Positions 2,948 to 11,266 of a DNA stretch of 15,112 nt are shown here, piece after piece (the first letter of the stretch is position 1; the number at the start of each line of letters is the position of its first letter). Below the pieces are notes generated by a model, which saw only the letters and a list, made by a program, of their open reading frames with translations, made no database searches and was not told the origin of the DNA. The position numbers were made by a program, and so were the translations under genes. Origin of the DNA: Paracoccaceae bacterium (lineage in GTDB: Bacteria > Pseudomonadota > Alphaproteobacteria > Rhodobacterales > Rhodobacteraceae); assembly GCA_002683355.1 (NCBI GenBank), contig NYTF01000055.1, positions 1 to 15,112 of the forward strand. Reading direction: 5' to 3'.

Positions 2948-4045
2948 ATGGGTTTTAAAACAGGGATAGTGGGTTTACCGAATGTGGGGAAGTCTACATT
3001 ATTTAACGCCTTAACGAGAACCGCGGCCGCTCAAGCAGCAAACTTTCCATTCTGCACAATTGAACCCAATATTGGAGAAGTTTCAGTTCCTGATGAAAGA
3101 TTGGATAAGTTAGCTGATTTGGCAAAATCTGCTAAAAGACTTCCAGCAAGAATGACTTTTGTAGATATTGCAGGATTAGTAAAAGGAGCCTCTAAAGGTG
3201 AAGGTTTGGGTAACCAATTTTTAGCTAATATTAGAGAGACGGATGCGGTTGCTCATGTTCTGAGGTGCTTTGACGATAGTGATGTAACCCATGTTGAAGG
3301 AAAAGTGGATCCAGTTGCTGATGCTGAAACAATTGAAACTGAATTGATGTTAGCTGATATCGAAAGCATTGAAAAAAGATTGCAAAATCTAAGTCGAAAA
3401 ATAAGAGGCGGTGAAAAGGAAGCTGTCGAGCAGGATAGATTGCTTAGGTTAGCTTTAGGGGTATTGGAAAATGGTCAACCCGCAAGAACTTTGAATATTG
3501 TGGAAGAGGACTTTCGCACTTGGGATATGCTTCAGCTTTTAACTGCTAAACCTATTTTGTATGTTTGTAATGTCGATGAGGAAAAAGCTGCTAGCGGAAA
3601 TACTTATTCTGAAGCAGTAGAGAAGATGGCTAAAACTCATGGAGCTGCCTCAGTTGTGATTTCTGCAGCGATTGAAGAGGAAATCAGTCAATTAGAGAGT
3701 GAAGAAGCTAACATGTTTCTTGAAGAAATGGGATTAAATCAACCAGGTCTAAATAAATTAATTGAGGCTGGCTATGATCTGTTAGAATTGCAAACATATT
3801 TTACTTGTGGGCCAAAGGAAACACGAGCTTGGACAATACAAAAGGGGGTATCAGCTCCACAGGCGGCAGGAGTAATACATGGTGACTTTGAAAAAGGCTT
3901 TATTCGCGCTGAAACGATTGCGTTTGAAGATTATATCGCGTTGGGAGGTGAAAGTGCCGCGCGAGATGCAGGAAAATTAAGAGCAGAAGGAAAGAGTTAT
4001 ATTGTTCAGGATGGAGATGTTATGCATTTTCTTCATAGTAATTAG
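2948..4045 (+). CDS. ychF: Redox/ribosome-associated ATPase YchF (Obg-like ATPase)
   Basis: A 365-residue TRAFAC-class P-loop NTPase of the universally conserved YchF/OLA1 family, a cytosolic ATPase associated with ribosomes and stress responses. The P-loop GLPNVGKS is at 9-16 and the G3 motif DIAG at 73-76. The G4 position reads NVDE (208-211) rather than NKxD, as expected for the family's ATP preference. A central coiled-coil helical insert spans about 125-175, and a C-terminal TGS domain (LQTYFTCGPKETRAW through YIVQDGDVMHF) covers about 280-363. A GTG start six bases upstream (2942) is possible, but the ATG at 2948 gives the family N-terminus MGFKTGIVGLP and has GGAAA seven bases before it. 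The stop overlaps the convergent ligI stop by 4 bp. Confidence 0.96.
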   Translation: MGFKTGIVGLPNVGKSTLFNALTRTAAAQAANFPFCTIEPNIGEVSVPDERLDKLADLAKSAKRLPARMTFVDIAGLVKGASKGEGLGNQFLANIRETDAVAHVLRCFDDSDVTHVEGKVDPVADAETIETELMLADIESIEKRLQNLSRKIRGGEKEAVEQDRLLRLALGVLENGQPARTLNIVEEDFRTWDMLQLLTAKPILYVCNVDEEKAASGNTYSEAVEKMAKTHGAASVVISAAIEEEISQLESEEANMFLEEMGLNQPGLNKLIEAGYDLLELQTYFTCGPKETRAWTIQKGVSAPQAAGVIHGDFEKGFIRAETIAFEDYIALGGESAARDAGKLRAEGKSYIVQDGDVMHFLHSN

Positions 4046-4917
4046 TGGTCCCAATAAAGTCGCGTTGGATTTTCAACCAATAATTTTACTTTTAGTTCCT
4101 CTGTTGGTGCTATTTCATCCAAAATATTAACGAGCTGCCCATCATCAGGCATATGTGACTTCATATTTGGATGAGGCCAATCTGTACCCCATAAAACTCG
4201 GTCTGAATAGTTTTCTACTAGTAACCTCATAAAAGGTAAAATATCAGAATAATTTTGTTCTGGTCCTTCCCTTGATAATCGTTCTGGACAACTTGTTTTG
4301 CACCAAAACTTATTATTTTCCATTAACTTCTGAAACAAATTGAATTCCATGCTGTCTAGACCTTTTGATACATCTGGGCGAGCCATGTGATCAAACACAA
4401 TATCAGTTGGTAAAGATTTGAGGAAAGGTATTAATTCTTCTAAGTCTTGTGCCTCGAGATATACAACGATGTGCCACCCTAAGTCAGCAATTGTTTTTGC
4501 TATTTTTTGAAATATTTCTCTTGGTGTGTTGTCGACCAATCTTTTTACAAAGTTAAATCGAACGGCTCGAACCCCCGCTTCATCCAGACGATTTAATTCG
4601 GCTTTAGTAACCTGTGGCGAAACAACAGCGACACCTCTCGCTAGATCATTTGACGATAATAGTGTGTCTTCCAACGCGTCATTATTAGTTCCGTGGCATG
4701 ATGCTTGGACAATTACATTTTTTTCAAAACCTAAAAAGTCACGAAGTTTAAAAAGTTTCTCTTTTGACGCATCGCATGGTGTATATTTGCGTTCTGGAGC
4801 GAAGGGAAATTTATTTGCTGGACCAAAAACATGGCAGTGAGCATCAACTGCGCCTTTAGGTAAGTTTATTGTTGGTTTTGATGGGTTTGGGTGGAAGGGT
4901 AGCCAATCGGGGTCCAT
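4042..4917 (-). CDS. ligI: 2-pyrone-4,6-dicarboxylate (PDC) hydrolase, LigI type
   Basis: A 291-residue amidohydrolase-superfamily TIM barrel, matching the ~293 residues of Sphingobium LigI. It opens the PDC lactone to 4-oxalomesaconate. Diagnostic segments are VDAHCHVFGP (24-33) with the HxH pair His27/His29, VRAVRFNFVKR (117-126), VVYLEAQD (151-158), VFDHMARPD (174-182), and GTDWPHPNMK (244-253) with the catalytic Asp246 followed by MPDDGQLV. In characterised LigI the reaction is metal-independent despite the superfamily fold. It is the last gene of the operon. Its TAA overlaps the convergent ychF TAG. The ATG at 4917 is preceded by AAGGAAAA, a clear ribosome binding site, 13 nt after galD. 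Other amidohydrolase-2 lactonases are an alternative, but the pathway context makes LigI very likely. Confidence 0.93.
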   Translation of the reverse strand: MDPDWLPFHPNPSKPTINLPKGAVDAHCHVFGPANKFPFAPERKYTPCDASKEKLFKLRDFLGFEKNVIVQASCHGTNNDALEDTLLSSNDLARGVAVVSPQVTKAELNRLDEAGVRAVRFNFVKRLVDNTPREIFQKIAKTIADLGWHIVVYLEAQDLEELIPFLKSLPTDIVFDHMARPDVSKGLDSMEFNLFQKLMENNKFWCKTSCPERLSREGPEQNYSDILPFMRLLVENYSDRVLWGTDWPHPNMKSHMPDDGQLVNILDEIAPTEELKVKLLVENPTRLYWDH

Positions 4918-4930
4918 AATAATTTTCCTT

Positions 4931-5998
4931 TTAATTCAGATCGCTAAAAACAAGTCCATCTAAGAGTTTCCGGGCTGTTCTCAGAATAGCAGTAGAGCTT
5001 ATTTCTTTATCTTTGAAACTGACAACTATTTGAGTTTGACCAGAAGGATGTTCAACTGAACAAATTTTTGTGTCTCCATTTGGTATTGAAGAGATTTTAG
5101 CTGTAATGGTTTGGTCTAATAGACAAGCTGTTGCAATGCTAACTGCACCAAATACCCCAATAGATGAATGACATCGGTGTGGTATAAAAGTTCTAGTATT
5201 TATTATGCCGCCAGCTTTTGAAGTGCTAACTATAGTCATTTTTGGCACAGTTTTTTTACTTACATCCCCTAAGTTCATTAGCTGACCACAGGATTTGCGT
5301 AATTCTTCTAAAATTTTCCGTAGTTCTAAGTTTTTCTCGAGAACTTCTGTGTCTTCATACCCAGTTATTTTTAGATCTGAGGCTTTAATAATTACACATG
5401 GCATTCCATTGTCGATCATAGTCACATTTAAACCATTCACCGTATCTATTTGATTACCTGTTGGTAATAAGCGGCCACACATAGATCCAGCTATATCTAA
5501 GAATTCTAGAGGGATTGCGGAACTTGGTCTTGGGACGCCATCTATCTGAGTATTACCATCATACACTACTTTAGAGCTTGTTGTTTGAACCGTGGCAATA
5601 GCGATTTGACCTGTATTTTCCATAAATATTTTAACTTTTGTTTCACTTTTACCTTCTTGAGGTTTCACTAAGCCGCGTTCTATTGAAAATGGTCCTACTC
5701 CGGCTAAAATATTACCACAGTTTTGCATGTCTGAGACCAATGCTTCATCGACAGAAACTTGAAGAAATAGATACTCTACATCTACATTTTGTTTTTTTGA
5801 TTTTGAGACGATTGCGACTTTTGATGTTAAAGGGCTTCCCCCTCCAACGCCATTTATTTGTAATTTGTCAGGTGATCCAAAAACAGATAGGAGGAACTTA
5901 TCTCTTTCTTTCTTATCGGAAGGTATATCATCTTTCAAAAAATAGAGACCTTTTGATGTTCCTCCCCGCATCCACATGGCAGAAACACCATTAGACAT
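4931..5998 (-). CDS. galD: 4-oxalomesaconate tautomerase/isomerase (PrpF family, GalD/LigU-like)
   Basis: A 355-residue protein of the PrpF/DUF453 family with two diaminopimelate-epimerase-like halves. It opens with [14 protein letters not shown] (8-21). It then has [14 protein letters not shown] with Lys60 and [13 protein letters not shown] with Cys94, which by 6-residue offset correspond to the Lys66/Cys100 pair proposed in Lig[12 protein letters not shown] and the second-half motif [20 protein letters not shown] also fit. GalD of Pseudomonas putida tautomerises 4-oxalomesaconate, whereas LigU of Sphingobium performs a 1,3-allylic isomerisation to 2-keto-4-carboxy-3-hexenedioate. The two are homologous and cannot be told apart here. 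The start ATG lies inside the ligK 3' end (8 bp overlap), pointing to translational coupling. Pairing with a GalB hydratase favours the galD name. Confidence 0.9.
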
Positions 5999-6665
5999 AT
6001 TTTAAACCATGTTTTTTTAACTTTTCACGCATTTTATATATATCAAGACCTAATTCACCGCTCGCCAATCTCTTACGTTTTTCTATTTCTAGCGCTTCAC
6101 GTTCCTTGGAGAGCTTCAGAACGTTTTCCGCTTCAGCACGTTTGACAATACAAACGCCATCATCATCGGCTATAATCACATCACCAGCGTCTACTTTTGC
6201 ACCTGCACATTCTATTGGAATATTTACTGATCCGATCACTTCCTTAACAGTGCCTTGCGCATTATGGGCTTTACACCAGACGGGAAAATCCATTTTTCTT
6301 AGGTCAGCAATATCTCTACATCCCGCATCAATTATTAGTCCTTTGCATCCACGTGCTATGGCGGATGTGGCTAATAGATCGCCAAAATATCCAGCATCTG
6401 AGGGAGCAGTGGTTGCTAAAATTAGGATATCACCTGGGTTTATTTGCTCAATTGCTACATGAAGCATCCAATTATCTCCAGGTGGTGCAAGAATAGTTAA
6501 GGCAGAACCAGCTATTCGTTTGCCAGAAATAATAGGAGAAATATAGCTTGAAAGTAATCCTCTCTGACCCTGCGCTTCGTGTATAGTTGCAACCCCGCAA
6601 TCGGCCAAACCATCAATTATATTTTGATCGACTCGATCAACATGTTGTTGAACAATTCCACTCAT
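5991..6665 (-). CDS. ligK: 4-carboxy-4-hydroxy-2-oxoadipate (CHA) aldolase, LigK/GalC type (RraA fold)
   Basis: A 224-residue member of the RraA-like class II pyruvate aldolases. It cleaves CHA to pyruvate and oxaloacetate using a divalent metal, and the family also decarboxylates oxaloacetate. The active-site signature is visible as [11 protein letters not shown] with Gly95-Asp96, then Arg117-Asp118 in [10 protein letters not shown] (113-122) about 20 residues later. [14 protein letters not shown], the DADDG-like [11 protein letters not shown] and the C-terminal tail [16 protein letters not shown] (201-216) are typical of LigK/HMG aldolases rather than the RNase E inhibitor RraA, which lacks this tail. 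The ATG overlaps the galB stop as TAATG, and the 3' end overlaps galD by 8 bp. This is the final enzyme of the pathway and delivers central metabolites. Confidence 0.92.
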
Positions 6666-7399
6666 TATAATTCATCCTTACAAACTGGATAGACAGTTTC
6701 GAAGGCTTCAGCATACTCTGCGGGCCGACCACCTGCCATTCCTCCAGAGTTTCTTCTGAAATGATTACCTCTATTTTCAGCAACATTTGTGTAATAATTC
6801 CATAGATGGTGTTGTCCTTCCATACACTCTATTGCTTTGCGCTTATTATCCCAAACATCAGTGATATCTAAAAATACGTCAGGTTTCCATCCCATTTGCT
6901 CTGTTTGATGTGGTTCAAACAAATATAGTTGAGGAGCTCCTAACACCTTTTCGCCAGGATTGTGTCCCCATGCTTGAGCAATCATGCGAGTTTCCATTGC
7001 AACTTTTGTCATTAACATATGGTCTGTATTATATTGATCATACTTTGAATGACTCATCATAAAATTTGGTTGAGTTTTACGTATTAAATCGACTATTTTA
7101 TACTTTGCTTCCTTGTCGATCTCCAATGGATAATCTCCAAGATCCATGAAAATAATATTATGAGCATTTAAAGCTTTAGCCGCGTTTTCTGCTTCTTTTC
7201 TTCGATTGGCTTTTACTTTTTCAAGTGTCATGCCATCTTGTTTCCAGAGCTTTGCACTTTCGCCTTTTTCCCCGAAAGACATACAGGCTATTGTCACTTC
7301 GTAACCTAATTTTTGATGTAATGCTATTGCACCACCGCAGCGCCAAACAAAATCAGCAGCGTGAGCGGATAGAATCAATGCAGTTTTTTTATTGTTCAT
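6665..7399 (-). CDS. galB: 4-oxalomesaconate hydratase, GalB type (PIG-L/LmbE family)
   Basis: A 244-residue protein of the zinc-dependent PIG-L (LmbE) family. The family is mostly N-acetyl-sugar deacetylases, but GalB of Pseudomonas putida is a PIG-L-fold hydratase that forms 4-carboxy-4-hydroxy-2-oxoadipate. The GalB-like signature is [20 protein letters not shown] (10-29), where AHAAD replaces the deacetylase AHPDD and His13/Asp16 are retained. Further support comes from [29 protein letters not shown] (84-92), YNTDH with His127 as likely third zinc ligand, and FEPHQTEQ...[23 protein letters not shown] (161-193). Sphingobium uses the unrelated amidohydrolase LigJ for this step; none is present here. 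Start ATG 7399 lies 32 nt after the sulfatase, the largest gap in the operon. The last four residues, KDEL, are coincidental. Confidence 0.9.
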
Positions 7400-7431
7400 A
7401 ATATCACTCTCAATTTTCTTAAGTATAACTA

Positions 7432-9072
7432 TTATTCCTCAATAAAGTTTTGTTTAATTTTACCTCGATAAAGCGCGGTTAACTCGTCAGGCACTTCGCT
7501 GCCATCAAAAAGAAATGGCAATATACCTTTCCCCATGGATCTAGTTCGCATATTTTTAATATCATCTTCTGACTTTGTTACTCTTTGGGCTAGTCTTCTA
7601 CCCCATTGGGCTAAAAAACCATACAGACGATTAATCTCATCCGCATATTCTTCAGTCTTGGCTAAATCATGAAATTCATCAGGATCAGTTTTTAAATCAA
7701 ATAACATAGGCCGGAGACCACCTTCAGCGTGCATCATTTTCCACCTACCATCAAAAACCATGAATAGGCGGCAATCACGTGGCTCTAATCCCAATTTCAG
7801 TGCCAAAGGCGTGGCTGAATAATCGAATTCGCTCACTACATAATTTCGCCATTTGGGTGTTTCCCCATTAATCCATGGTATCAGTGATCGACCTTCAATT
7901 ATGTGATCTGGGACTTTACCTCCAGCAGCGTCCACAAAAGTCGCAGCTAGATCTAAGCTCTCGACCAATTGATCGCATGTGGAGTTGCGAGTTTTATTTG
8001 CTTTTTCCCTGGGATCATAAATAATCATGGGGATTTTAACAGATTGTTCATGAAATAAATCTTTCTCACCTAACCAATGATCACCTAGGTAATCACCATG
8101 ATCGGAGGTGAGTACGATCATAGTGCTTTCTAATTTACTTTCTTTTTCTAAGTGTTCTAGAAGTCTACCTAACTGGTCATCACATTGCTTGATTAAGCCC
8201 ATGTATGCTGGTATTACTTTTTGCCGTACTTCTTCTTTTTGGAACGCTTCAGCGATCTTATTATTCTGATAACCTCCAAAAATTGGATGAGGGTTTTCCC
8301 TTTCTATTTCATGTCTTTTTGCAGGTGGAACATGATTTGCACCATACATATTGTGATAAGGTGCAGGAACAATATAAGGCCAGTGGGGTTTTATAAAGCT
8401 TACATGGGCACACCACGGGCCTTTTTGTTTATTGATAAAATCTATTGTTTGAGTCGTTAACCACGCTGTTTCGCTATCTTCTTCCTTTATGTTCGCTGCT
8501 TTATCCGCATTTTTAAAAAACCATCCTGAAGCAATATTATCACCATCAATACTAGCATTTGCAAAGTCTGCCCACGGATTCTCGCTCTCGTATCCTTTAG
8601 ATTTAAGATATTCGTTATAAGGAGATCGTTTTTCGTCATAAAATCCGTCAGGACCTTGACCCCAAAGACCATCATCGCGAACCCAAGAATCAAATCCACA
8701 TTCAGCTTGTCTGGCGCCAATTTCGCTATCAGCACTCAAGCCAAGTCTAGACATGCCTTCGGCATCTGCTTTCATGTGAGTTTTACCTAATAACCAGCAA
8801 TTCATTCCAGCTTTCCGTAAATGATCACCCATAGTTAATTCACCCACTCTTAGGGGAAAATTGTTCCATTGAGCACCATGGCTTGATGCATACCGCCCTG
8901 TGTAAAAACACATTCTGCTTGCACCGCAAATAGGTGATTGGACATACGCATTTGTAAAACGAACCCCCATTGAGGCCACACGATCAAAATTTGGAGTTTC
9001 TAAAGAAGGATGGCCGGAGCAGCTTAAGTAGTCAAATCTAAGCTGATCATACATTATGAATAATATATTCAA
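7432..9072 (-). CDS. Sulfatase-family hydrolase (arylsulfatase / phosphonate monoester hydrolase-like)
   Basis: A 546-residue alkaline-phosphatase-superfamily sulfatase. The N-terminal strand NILFIMYDQL carries metal ligand Asp9. The formylglycine site is SPICGASRM, with Cys49 as the residue to be modified and core CGASR instead of the commoner CxPSR; TGRYASSHG follows. The second metal site is LTSDHGDYLGDH (321-332) with Asp324/His325, then GEKDLFHEQSVKIPMI (335-350) with conserved Lys and His. The part AHVSFIKPHWPYIVPAPYHNMY (222-243) and the length resemble the phosphonate monoester hydrolase/arylsulfatase subgroup. No signal peptide is seen, so it should be cytoplasmic. The start is TTG at 9072, overlapping the ligC TGA as TTGA, with GAGAGG 8 nt upstream. 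The later ATG at 9054 would delete the conserved first strand. Substrate is unknown; the operon context suggests a sulfated or phosphorylated aromatic. Confidence 0.88.
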   Translation of the reverse strand: MNILFIMYDQLRFDYLSCSGHPSLETPNFDRVASMGVRFTNAYVQSPICGASRMCFYTGRYASSHGAQWNNFPLRVGELTMGDHLRKAGMNCWLLGKTHMKADAEGMSRLGLSADSEIGARQAECGFDSWVRDDGLWGQGPDGFYDEKRSPYNEYLKSKGYESENPWADFANASIDGDNIASGWFFKNADKAANIKEEDSETAWLTTQTIDFINKQKGPWCAHVSFIKPHWPYIVPAPYHNMYGANHVPPAKRHEIERENPHPIFGGYQNNKIAEAFQKEEVRQKVIPAYMGLIKQCDDQLGRLLEHLEKESKLESTMIVLTSDHGDYLGDHWLGEKDLFHEQSVKIPMIIYDPREKANKTRNSTCDQLVESLDLAATFVDAAGGKVPDHIIEGRSLIPWINGETPKWRNYVVSEFDYSATPLALKLGLEPRDCRLFMVFDGRWKMMHAEGGLRPMLFDLKTDPDEFHDLAKTEEYADEINRLYGFLAQWGRRLAQRVTKSEDDIKNMRTRSMGKGILPFLFDGSEVPDELTALYRGKIKQNFIEE

Positions 9073-10013
9073 CTAATTGACCTCTCAATTTTATCAAGTG
9101 TCTCCATTGCTGAAATTACATCAGTTACACAAGCATTTGGTGTCCGACCTTCTTTTATTGCTGAAATAAATTCACGATCGATGAGTTCGATGCCGTTACT
9201 GGAAACTGCAACATTGGTCAGATCAATCTGGTTATTATTCCCATCAAAAAGATCATCATATCTGGCGATGTAAGTGCCCTTGTCGCAGATATATCGAAAA
9301 AATGTTCCAAATGGCCCATCATTGTTAAAGCTCAGAGACAGTGTACAAATGGCTCCATCCGTCGCCTTCAAACCGATTGTCATATCCATTGCGATTCCCA
9401 ACTCTGAATGGATAGGTCCTTGTAAGCCAAATGCTTGAGTAGCCTTGCCGCCTGTTTGGTACTGAAAAAGGTCAACCGTATGGCAAGCATGATGCCACAG
9501 CAAGTGGTCTGTCCAACTTCTTGGTTGGCCTTTCGCGTTCGTATTGGTTCGGCGAAAAAAATAGGTTTGAGCATCCATTTGTTGAAGCTTTAACTCGCCT
9601 AAGTTAATTTTATTTTTGATCCATTGATGAGACGGGTTAAAGCGCCGAACCTGCCCGGCCATACAAGTGAGGCCAGTCTCACGATGTTTTTTAACAACGC
9701 GCATACTATCTTCAAGACTATCAGCCATTGGGATTTCAATTAAAACGTGTTTTCCTGCATCCATACAAGCAATTGCTTGATTTGCATGCAATTGGGTTGG
9801 CGTTGACAAAATAACGGCATCGACATCATCCCGAGCAATGCAGTTCTCAAGACTGGTACTAAAATGATTTATTCTACGCTCAGCTGCTAATGCTTTTATT
9901 TTGGTCTCTGTTGGACCCATTATGGACGTAACTTCGACATCCTCAATATTTTTTAAGGCGTCTAAATGTTTTAAACCAAATGCGCCATATGCACCAGCTA
10001 CACAAATTTTCAT
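9069..10013 (-). CDS. ligC: 4-carboxy-2-hydroxymuconate-6-semialdehyde dehydrogenase LigC (Gfo/Idh/MocA family)
   Basis: A 314-residue NAD(P)-dependent oxidoreductase, the size of LigC (~315). It oxidises the cyclic hemiacetal of the protocatechuate ring-cleavage product to 2-pyrone-4,6-dicarboxylate. The Rossmann loop is VAGAYGAFGLKHLDAL (5-20). The usual EKP motif of the family reads EIP (93-95) in LIEIPMADSLEDS, as I recall for LigC-like proteins. The substrate-side segment WTDHLLWHHACHTVDLF (167-183) contains the conserved histidines. FNNDGPFGTFFRYICDKGTY and the C-terminal DREFISAIKEGR also fit the family. The ATG at 10013 has GAGG about 7 nt upstream, inside the end of ligB, and lies 9 nt after its stop. 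Generic Gfo/Idh/MocA dehydrogenase is the fallback, but adjacency to ligAB makes LigC strong. Confidence 0.92.
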   Translation of the reverse strand: MKICVAGAYGAFGLKHLDALKNIEDVEVTSIMGPTETKIKALAAERRINHFSTSLENCIARDDVDAVILSTPTQLHANQAIACMDAGKHVLIEIPMADSLEDSMRVVKKHRETGLTCMAGQVRRFNPSHQWIKNKINLGELKLQQMDAQTYFFRRTNTNAKGQPRSWTDHLLWHHACHTVDLFQYQTGGKATQAFGLQGPIHSELGIAMDMTIGLKATDGAICTLSLSFNNDGPFGTFFRYICDKGTYIARYDDLFDGNNNQIDLTNVAVSSNGIELIDREFISAIKEGRTPNACVTDVISAMETLDKIERSIS

Positions 10014-10022
10014 AAGTTATCC

Positions 10023-11266
<1,244 letters not shown>

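Follow-up and report, generated by a model that had tools for sequence, protein, structure and literature searches.

A predicted cytoplasmic arylsulfatase within a protocatechuate 4,5-cleavage operon of a Paracoccaceae bacterium and its probable origin in a larger cassette

In this study, we examined a sulfatase gene that lies within a protocatechuate 4,5-cleavage (lig) operon on a 15,112-nucleotide contig of a Paracoccaceae bacterium (NYTF01000055.1, assembly GCA_002683355.1; the whole stretch is called the window here). We think it probable that this gene encodes a cytoplasmic, formylglycine-dependent arylsulfatase, which would feed a freed phenolic compound to the lig pathway, and that it arrived by insertion of a cassette from which three further genes were later lost through a 5.35-kb deletion. 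The sequence itself shows the order of the genes, the families they belong to, which of them relatives have or lack, the junction and the conserved residues; the direction from insertion to deletion, the sulfatase activity and the substrate class we infer.

The sulfatase and its place in the lig operon

The operon is ordered ligA-ligB-ligC-sulfatase-galB-ligK-galD-ligI, and the sulfatase start codon (TTG, 9072-9070) and the ligC stop codon (TGA, 9071-9069) share the four letters TTGA. A preliminary description had reported the gene as embedded in this operon and overlapping ligC, and its coordinates, start and neighbours are confirmed here. The identical junction is found in a genus-mate (locus L002), and the dN/dS values of the sulfatase gene, 0.044 to L002 and 0.033 to a second genus-mate (L003), indicate that it is maintained under purifying selection; together, the shared junction and this selection argue that the placement is not due to chance. 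The tight coupling is on the ligC side only, the sulfatase stop and galB being 32 bp apart (7400-7431). Curated cut-offs are passed by LigA, LigB, LigK and the tautomerase; LigC, GalB and LigI fit by Pfam family and position, none of them reaching a curated equivalog model, and the LigI-type protein scores 214.2 bits with the NCBIfam model for 4-sulfomuconolactone hydrolase, below the cut-off of 500.

7432..9072, reverse strand: S1-type (formylglycine) sulfatase resembling SpAS2 and SpAS1, 546 amino acids, TTG start (open reading frame, Pfam, comparison with the SpAS proteins)
9069..9072, reverse strand: TTGA overlap of the sulfatase start and the ligC stop (read from the sequence)
9069..10013, reverse strand: LigC, 4-carboxy-2-hydroxymuconate-6-semialdehyde dehydrogenase (PF01408, PF19858 and position)
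10023..10889, reverse strand: LigB, protocatechuate 4,5-dioxygenase beta subunit (NF009903, 479.8 bits, cut-off 317)
10874..11266, reverse strand: LigA, protocatechuate 4,5-dioxygenase alpha subunit (TIGR02792, 160.8 bits, cut-off 108.6)
6665..7399, reverse strand: GalB-type 4-oxalomesaconate hydratase of the PIG-L fold (Pfam PIG-L and position)
5991..6665, reverse strand: LigK aldolase (TIGR02798, 353 bits, cut-off 304.5)
4931..5998, reverse strand: 4-oxalomesaconate tautomerase, GalD/LigU (NF033377, 496.5 bits, cut-off 440)
4042..4917, reverse strand: LigI-type 2-pyrone-4,6-dicarboxylate hydrolase, an amidohydrolase (Pfam Amidohydro_2 and position)

A Fur-like regulator gene was also called by eye at positions 300-716 of the window.

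Judged by sequence, the window's protein adds a new member to the SpAS group of sulfatases, and each part of the cassette described below likewise comes from a known family. It scores 156.4 bits with the Pfam Sulfatase model (cut-off 25) and 58.7 bits with SGSH_C (cut-off 29.3), and its nearest solved relatives are two dimeric sulfatases of Silicibacter pomeroyi, SpAS2 (4UPL; 741.6 bits, 57% identity over 481 aligned residues) and SpAS1 (4UPI; 599.1 bits, 51% identity over 471 aligned residues), with which it has the fold and the K-T-H and D-H motifs in common; a native substrate of these two enzymes was not found in the literature searched. The residues of an arylsulfatase-type active site are present (K97-T-H99, H230, D324-H325 and K337), and we take K97 and H99 to be the substrate-binding Lys/His pair and D324 and H325 to be metal ligands.

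8914..8928, reverse strand: nucleophile motif C49-G-A-S-R53, its Cys presumably converted to formylglycine (alignment of 81 family members)
8776..8784, reverse strand: K97-T98-H99, an arylsulfatase-like pair, invariant in 81/81
8098..8103, reverse strand: D324-H325, presumed metal ligands, invariant in 81/81

In this alignment the Cys and Arg of the C-x-x-x-R motif are invariant (81/81) and the third place is never Pro (0/81), being Ala in 63 sequences, Gly in 9 and Ser in 9. The missing Pro of the canonical C-x-P-x-R motif is no bar to membership of the SpAS group, since SpAS2 itself has Ser there (CGSSR); the window's protein differs from both SpAS1 and SpAS2 in having CGASR and in its place in a ring-cleavage operon. 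As the whole subfamily is without this Pro, the question arises of how the formylglycine-generating enzyme (FGE) accepts the motif. An FGE-family maturase (PF03781, 222.5 bits) is encoded in the window's genome, and at another locus of this genome (L001, on contig C29) the FGE gene directly adjoins a further sulfatase gene, the product of which is about 30% identical to the window's.

The motif [IV]M[YH]DQLR occupies residues 6-12 in 81/81 aligned sulfatases and places the presumed metal-binding Asp at residue 9. The protein therefore starts directly in the catalytic strand and has no room for a signal peptide, which bears out the cytoplasmic location previously suggested. The predicted structural model has a pLDDT (predicted local distance difference test) score below 50 at residues 326-345, so its active-site geometry was left unused.

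The preliminary description had also likened the protein to the phosphonate monoester hydrolases (PMHs), and this reading was not supported. That the enzyme hydrolyses phosphonate or phosphate monoesters or diesters would be in keeping with its superfamily, which is shared with the PMHs and known for promiscuity, and with its nearest NCBIfam model, the phosphoric/sulfuric ester hydrolase PehA (NF045661). However, the PehA score of 275.9 bits falls short of the cut-off (900), SpAS2 and SpAS1 are nearer in both sequence and fold than the PMHs compared (2VQR, 2W8S, 4UPH and 4UPK, only 173.9-189.3 bits), and GYTDT (Tyr/Thr) stands in the PMH 4UPH where the window's protein has GKTHM (K97/H99). In addition, a second sulfatase is found among the neighbours and no phosphonate genes were noticed there, and we consider such an activity very improbable. 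Choline sulfatase was rejected as an identity as well (TIGR03417, 199.8 bits against a cut-off of 433.45).

A cassette in the genus-mates and the direction of change

In both L002 and L003, about 5.35 kb with three extra genes lies between the sulfatase gene and galB. The first encodes a 420-amino-acid alkylsulfatase of the metallo-β-lactamase (MBL) fold (PF00753, 70.8 bits; dimerization domain PF14863, 111 bits), which is a relative of SdsA1 and YjcS, contains an HSHRDH motif and starts with an ATG that overlaps the sulfatase stop; as the solved relatives have 633-668 amino acids, it is a short form of the SdsA1 type. The second gene product is a short-chain dehydrogenase/reductase (SDR), for which the nearest model is coniferyl-alcohol dehydrogenase (227.9 bits, below the cut-off of 242; its homologue at another locus, L016, reaches 244.6 bits). 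The third is a 1072-amino-acid reductive dehalogenase of the debrominase type with a C-terminal fusion resembling phthalate dioxygenase reductase. The L002 protein scores 190.8 bits with TIGR02486 (cut-off 160.35) and keeps Ser422, Tyr426, Lys488 and Arg552 of NpRdhA, residues which serve in phenol binding and proton donation (PMC7565698), and a similar reductase-type C-terminal part is found in the self-sufficient JtRdhA (PMC10463259). NpRdhA and JtRdhA are catabolic reductive dehalogenases, to which the L002 enzyme is likened by sequence.

No dehalogenase of more than 32% identity and no MBL protein of more than 26% identity was found in the window's genome (G000), which is 76.5% complete and in which the locus itself is contiguous. 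The GC and third-position GC contents of the four L002 genes resemble those of the lig genes, so that a recent import is not indicated. A PobA-like gene is present in all three genomes of the genus, scoring just under the cut-off (513-537 against 538.7 bits), and 4-hydroxybenzoates could therefore enter the pathway too.

The simplest history is probably that a ready-made cassette (arylsulfatase, MBL alkylsulfatase, coniferyl-alcohol-dehydrogenase-like SDR and NADPH-type debrominase) was taken up at the ligC-galB boundary by the ancestor of the genus, and that the window's lineage kept only the sulfatase after a 5.35-kb deletion, at a 6-bp repeat, had removed the other three genes. As both genus-mates hold three further genes at this site, the bare order ligC-sulfatase-galB is probably secondary. 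In another genome of the family (L224), the lig genes have the same order without a sulfatase (ligA-B-C-galB-ligK-galD-ligI, with ligC and galB overlapping by 8 nt), which, together with the cassette in the genus-mates, suggests that ligC|galB was the point of entry. The junction in the window matches the end of the L002 sulfatase gene fused to the leader of galB from L002, without the MBL start.

7431..7436, reverse strand: AATAAT, 6-bp repeat and presumed deletion scar, found at either end of the 5.35-kb segment of L002 that is absent from the window

It could instead be argued that the sulfatase was gained alone, as now seen in the window, and that the branch of L002 and L003 acquired the alkylsulfatase, SDR and dehalogenase afterwards. 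Such a two-step gain needs no deletion, and the DNA identity between window positions 4931-9072 and L002, about 78% in ligC, about 94% at its peak in galB and far lower again by ligI, indicates that recombination acted locally around the sulfatase-galB junction, which weighs against our proposal as it leaves room for this alternative. However, the genes to be added are the usual partners of the sulfatase in their usual order. In the sulfatase tree, the genus and its nearest relatives outside it form a set of nine rows (SH-aLRT 95) that includes L016 of the cultured relative HIMB11, with the order sulfatase-MBL-TRAP permease-TAXI-SDR-dehalogenase, and L026, with the order sulfatase-SDR-dehalogenase-pobA; the dehalogenase tree agrees, placing L002 with L016 (93) and then L026 (90). 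The window's junction, which reads as a cut through the L002 arrangement, also speaks against a two-step gain, and we regard it as improbable compared with insertion of a complete cassette followed by deletion.

Distribution of the sulfatase and its partners

Homologous loci were collected in a scan with one genome per species, one scoring step of which covered 7,998 of the candidates; the best 80 of 520 related loci were kept, many with short flanks. Genes and markers were called by codon-scored gene calls and tblastn and named by NCBIfam. Genes of the lig pathway were found beside the sulfatase in only 2/80 loci (L002 and L003), which belong to the window's own genus, and none of the 8 lig loci taken from other genera contains this sulfatase. 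Of 394 genomes of the family, 30 contain LigB and 150 the sulfatase; among the matches listed, only the window's genome and that of L002 (G002) have the two within 10 kb of each other. We therefore reject a family-wide link between the sulfatase and the lig genes: a place between ligC and galB, the frequency of which the preliminary description had proposed to tabulate, was seen only in the window's genus, and by the test set in that description a link to lig in this narrow sense largely fails. In five of the eight lig loci from other genera (L225, L226, L227, L229 and L230), ligI is adjoined by a further LigAB-like pair, which is distant in sequence (36-46% identity).

The wider surroundings of the sulfatase point to phenolic catabolism. 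Across the 80 loci, the flanks retrieved hold pca (3,4-cleavage) markers at 4, hpa at 5, pobA at 8 and lig at 2, with any aromatic marker at 18; dehalogenase was found at 5, alkylsulfatase at 17 and TRAP transporter genes at 22. For comparison we used other sulfatases of the same genomes, chosen by us among those listed, with no genome contributing more than two (of 66 control loci, 5 were dropped as a relative of at least 50% was present; L175 covers only 3.4 kb). With flanks trimmed to 9 kb, lig, pca, hpa or pobA occurred at 16/80 loci against 0/61 controls, or at 14/78 against 0/61 when the genus-mates were excluded; for alkylsulfatase the counts were 17/80 and 0/61 and for TRAP transporters 22/80 and 5/61. 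Mapped on the sulfatase tree, pca needs 4 changes and pobA 6, which is at least as many as shuffled labels need, and both are thus spread over the tree; hpa, with 2 changes, forms a cluster in Sulfitobacter. In that genus, the sulfatase adjoins homoprotocatechuate (hpa) meta-cleavage genes at L008, L009, L010, L011 and L014, and a gene resembling group II pyridoxal-phosphate decarboxylases lies among the hpa genes in at least four of these five loci. A TRAP transporter suspected from gene lengths beside the sulfatase of L182 was discarded, Pfam identifying the genes as UbiA and OmpA.

A link to debromination is suggested by the 394 family genomes. At thresholds of E ≤ 1e-80 for the fused dehalogenase and E ≤ 1e-200 for the sulfatase, 151 genomes contain the former and 96 contain both, against 57.5 expected when kinship is ignored. 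In 7 of the 91 genomes for which both places are listed (of the 96), the two genes are at most 10 kb apart, with about 0.5 expected. These are G002, G227 (HIMB11), G115 and G424 (directly adjacent, same strand), G302, G188 and G108 (9.7 kb); for the six or more outside the genus, a Poisson estimate that assumes 4-Mb genomes and independence gives 0.48 expected.

Several points weigh against the proposed role in phenolic degradation. The homologues lie mostly outside aromatic clusters, which the preliminary description had named as grounds against its own claim: none of the aromatic markers was present in the fetched flanks of 62/80 loci, and the 122 nearest neighbours at 42 loci with no aromatic, MBL or TRAP marker showed no common theme and no dominant family. 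The lig linkage is confined to one genus, the markers were chosen after the loci had been viewed, and the loci and genomes are related and not independent. Furthermore, of the 40 dehalogenase loci fetched, only 1 has an alkylsulfatase, and the 34 without a near sulfatase have pobA in 2 cases and lig or pca in none, so debrominase genes need not accompany ring cleavage. The marker-free homologues with their mixed neighbours and the single-genus lig site might suggest that the protein is a broad-range arylsulfatase serving in detoxification or in the scavenging of sulfur, whose gene came to lie in the lig operon by an accident of insertion and deletion. However, four kinds of catechol-acid genes recur beside this sulfatase and none at the 61 control loci, the TTGA coupling to ligC is retained in L002, and at the genome level the sulfatase co-occurs with LigB and with the dehalogenase; we therefore think scavenging rather unlikely. 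The earlier idea of phenolic desulfation feeding ring cleavage is partly supported, by an association seen at a minority of loci; that of a function tied to the pathway by tight placement is favoured by the conserved overlap, although the site is limited to one genus and the bare gene order is probably secondary.

Proposed pathway and its meaning

According to the proposal of a phenol-releasing arylsulfatase, a sulfated phenolic compound would be imported and desulfated in the cytoplasm, with Cys49 acting as formylglycine and a metal bound at Asp9, Asp324 and His325, and the freed phenol acid would pass to LigAB for protocatechuate 4,5-cleavage. The substrates may be sulfated hydroxybenzoates or hydroxybenzyl compounds, including brominated forms such as lanosol sulfates in the genus-mates. 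In lanosol-4,7-disulfate one sulfate is aryl and the other benzylic, and the molecule also has two bromines and the carbon of a benzyl alcohol (PMC9322897); to these features the arylsulfatase, alkylsulfatase, benzyl-alcohol-type dehydrogenase and debrominase predicted in the genus-mates would correspond. It is possible, and we suggest this only tentatively, that this genus of marine Rhodobacteraceae and, in scattered places, other Alpha- and Gammaproteobacteria have a complete intracellular pathway for seaweed bromophenol sulfates, of which the window would hold a cut-down version for non-brominated sulfates. In such a pathway, the formylglycine arylsulfatase would remove the aryl sulfate and the MBL alkylsulfatase the benzylic sulfate, the SDR would oxidise the benzyl alcohol, the self-sufficient debrominase would remove bromine, and LigABC-GalB-LigK-GalD-LigI would burn the resulting protocatechuate.

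A precedent for a debrominase joined to this ring-cleavage route is the bromoxynil pathway of Comamonas sp. 7D-2, in which the debrominase BhbA is connected to a route whose end product, 4-carboxy-2-hydroxymuconate-6-semialdehyde, is also that of LigAB (PMC10463259). L002 and L003 join the same kind of enzyme to lig genes, whereas the window itself is without a dehalogenase; the Comamonas cluster differs in its plasmid location and herbicide substrate, and no sulfatase is mentioned in the available part of that account. In the literature searched, which was available in part, no paper turned up that connects sulfatases with bromophenols and roseobacters, none that connects arylsulfatase with reductive dehalogenase and gene cluster, and neither the cassette combination nor its insertion in a lig operon was found.

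Should the cassette act as its parts indicate, it would identify genes through which the bromine, sulfate and carbon of such compounds go back into the sea, and it would point to a class of compounds as likely physiological substrates of the SpAS-type sulfatases.
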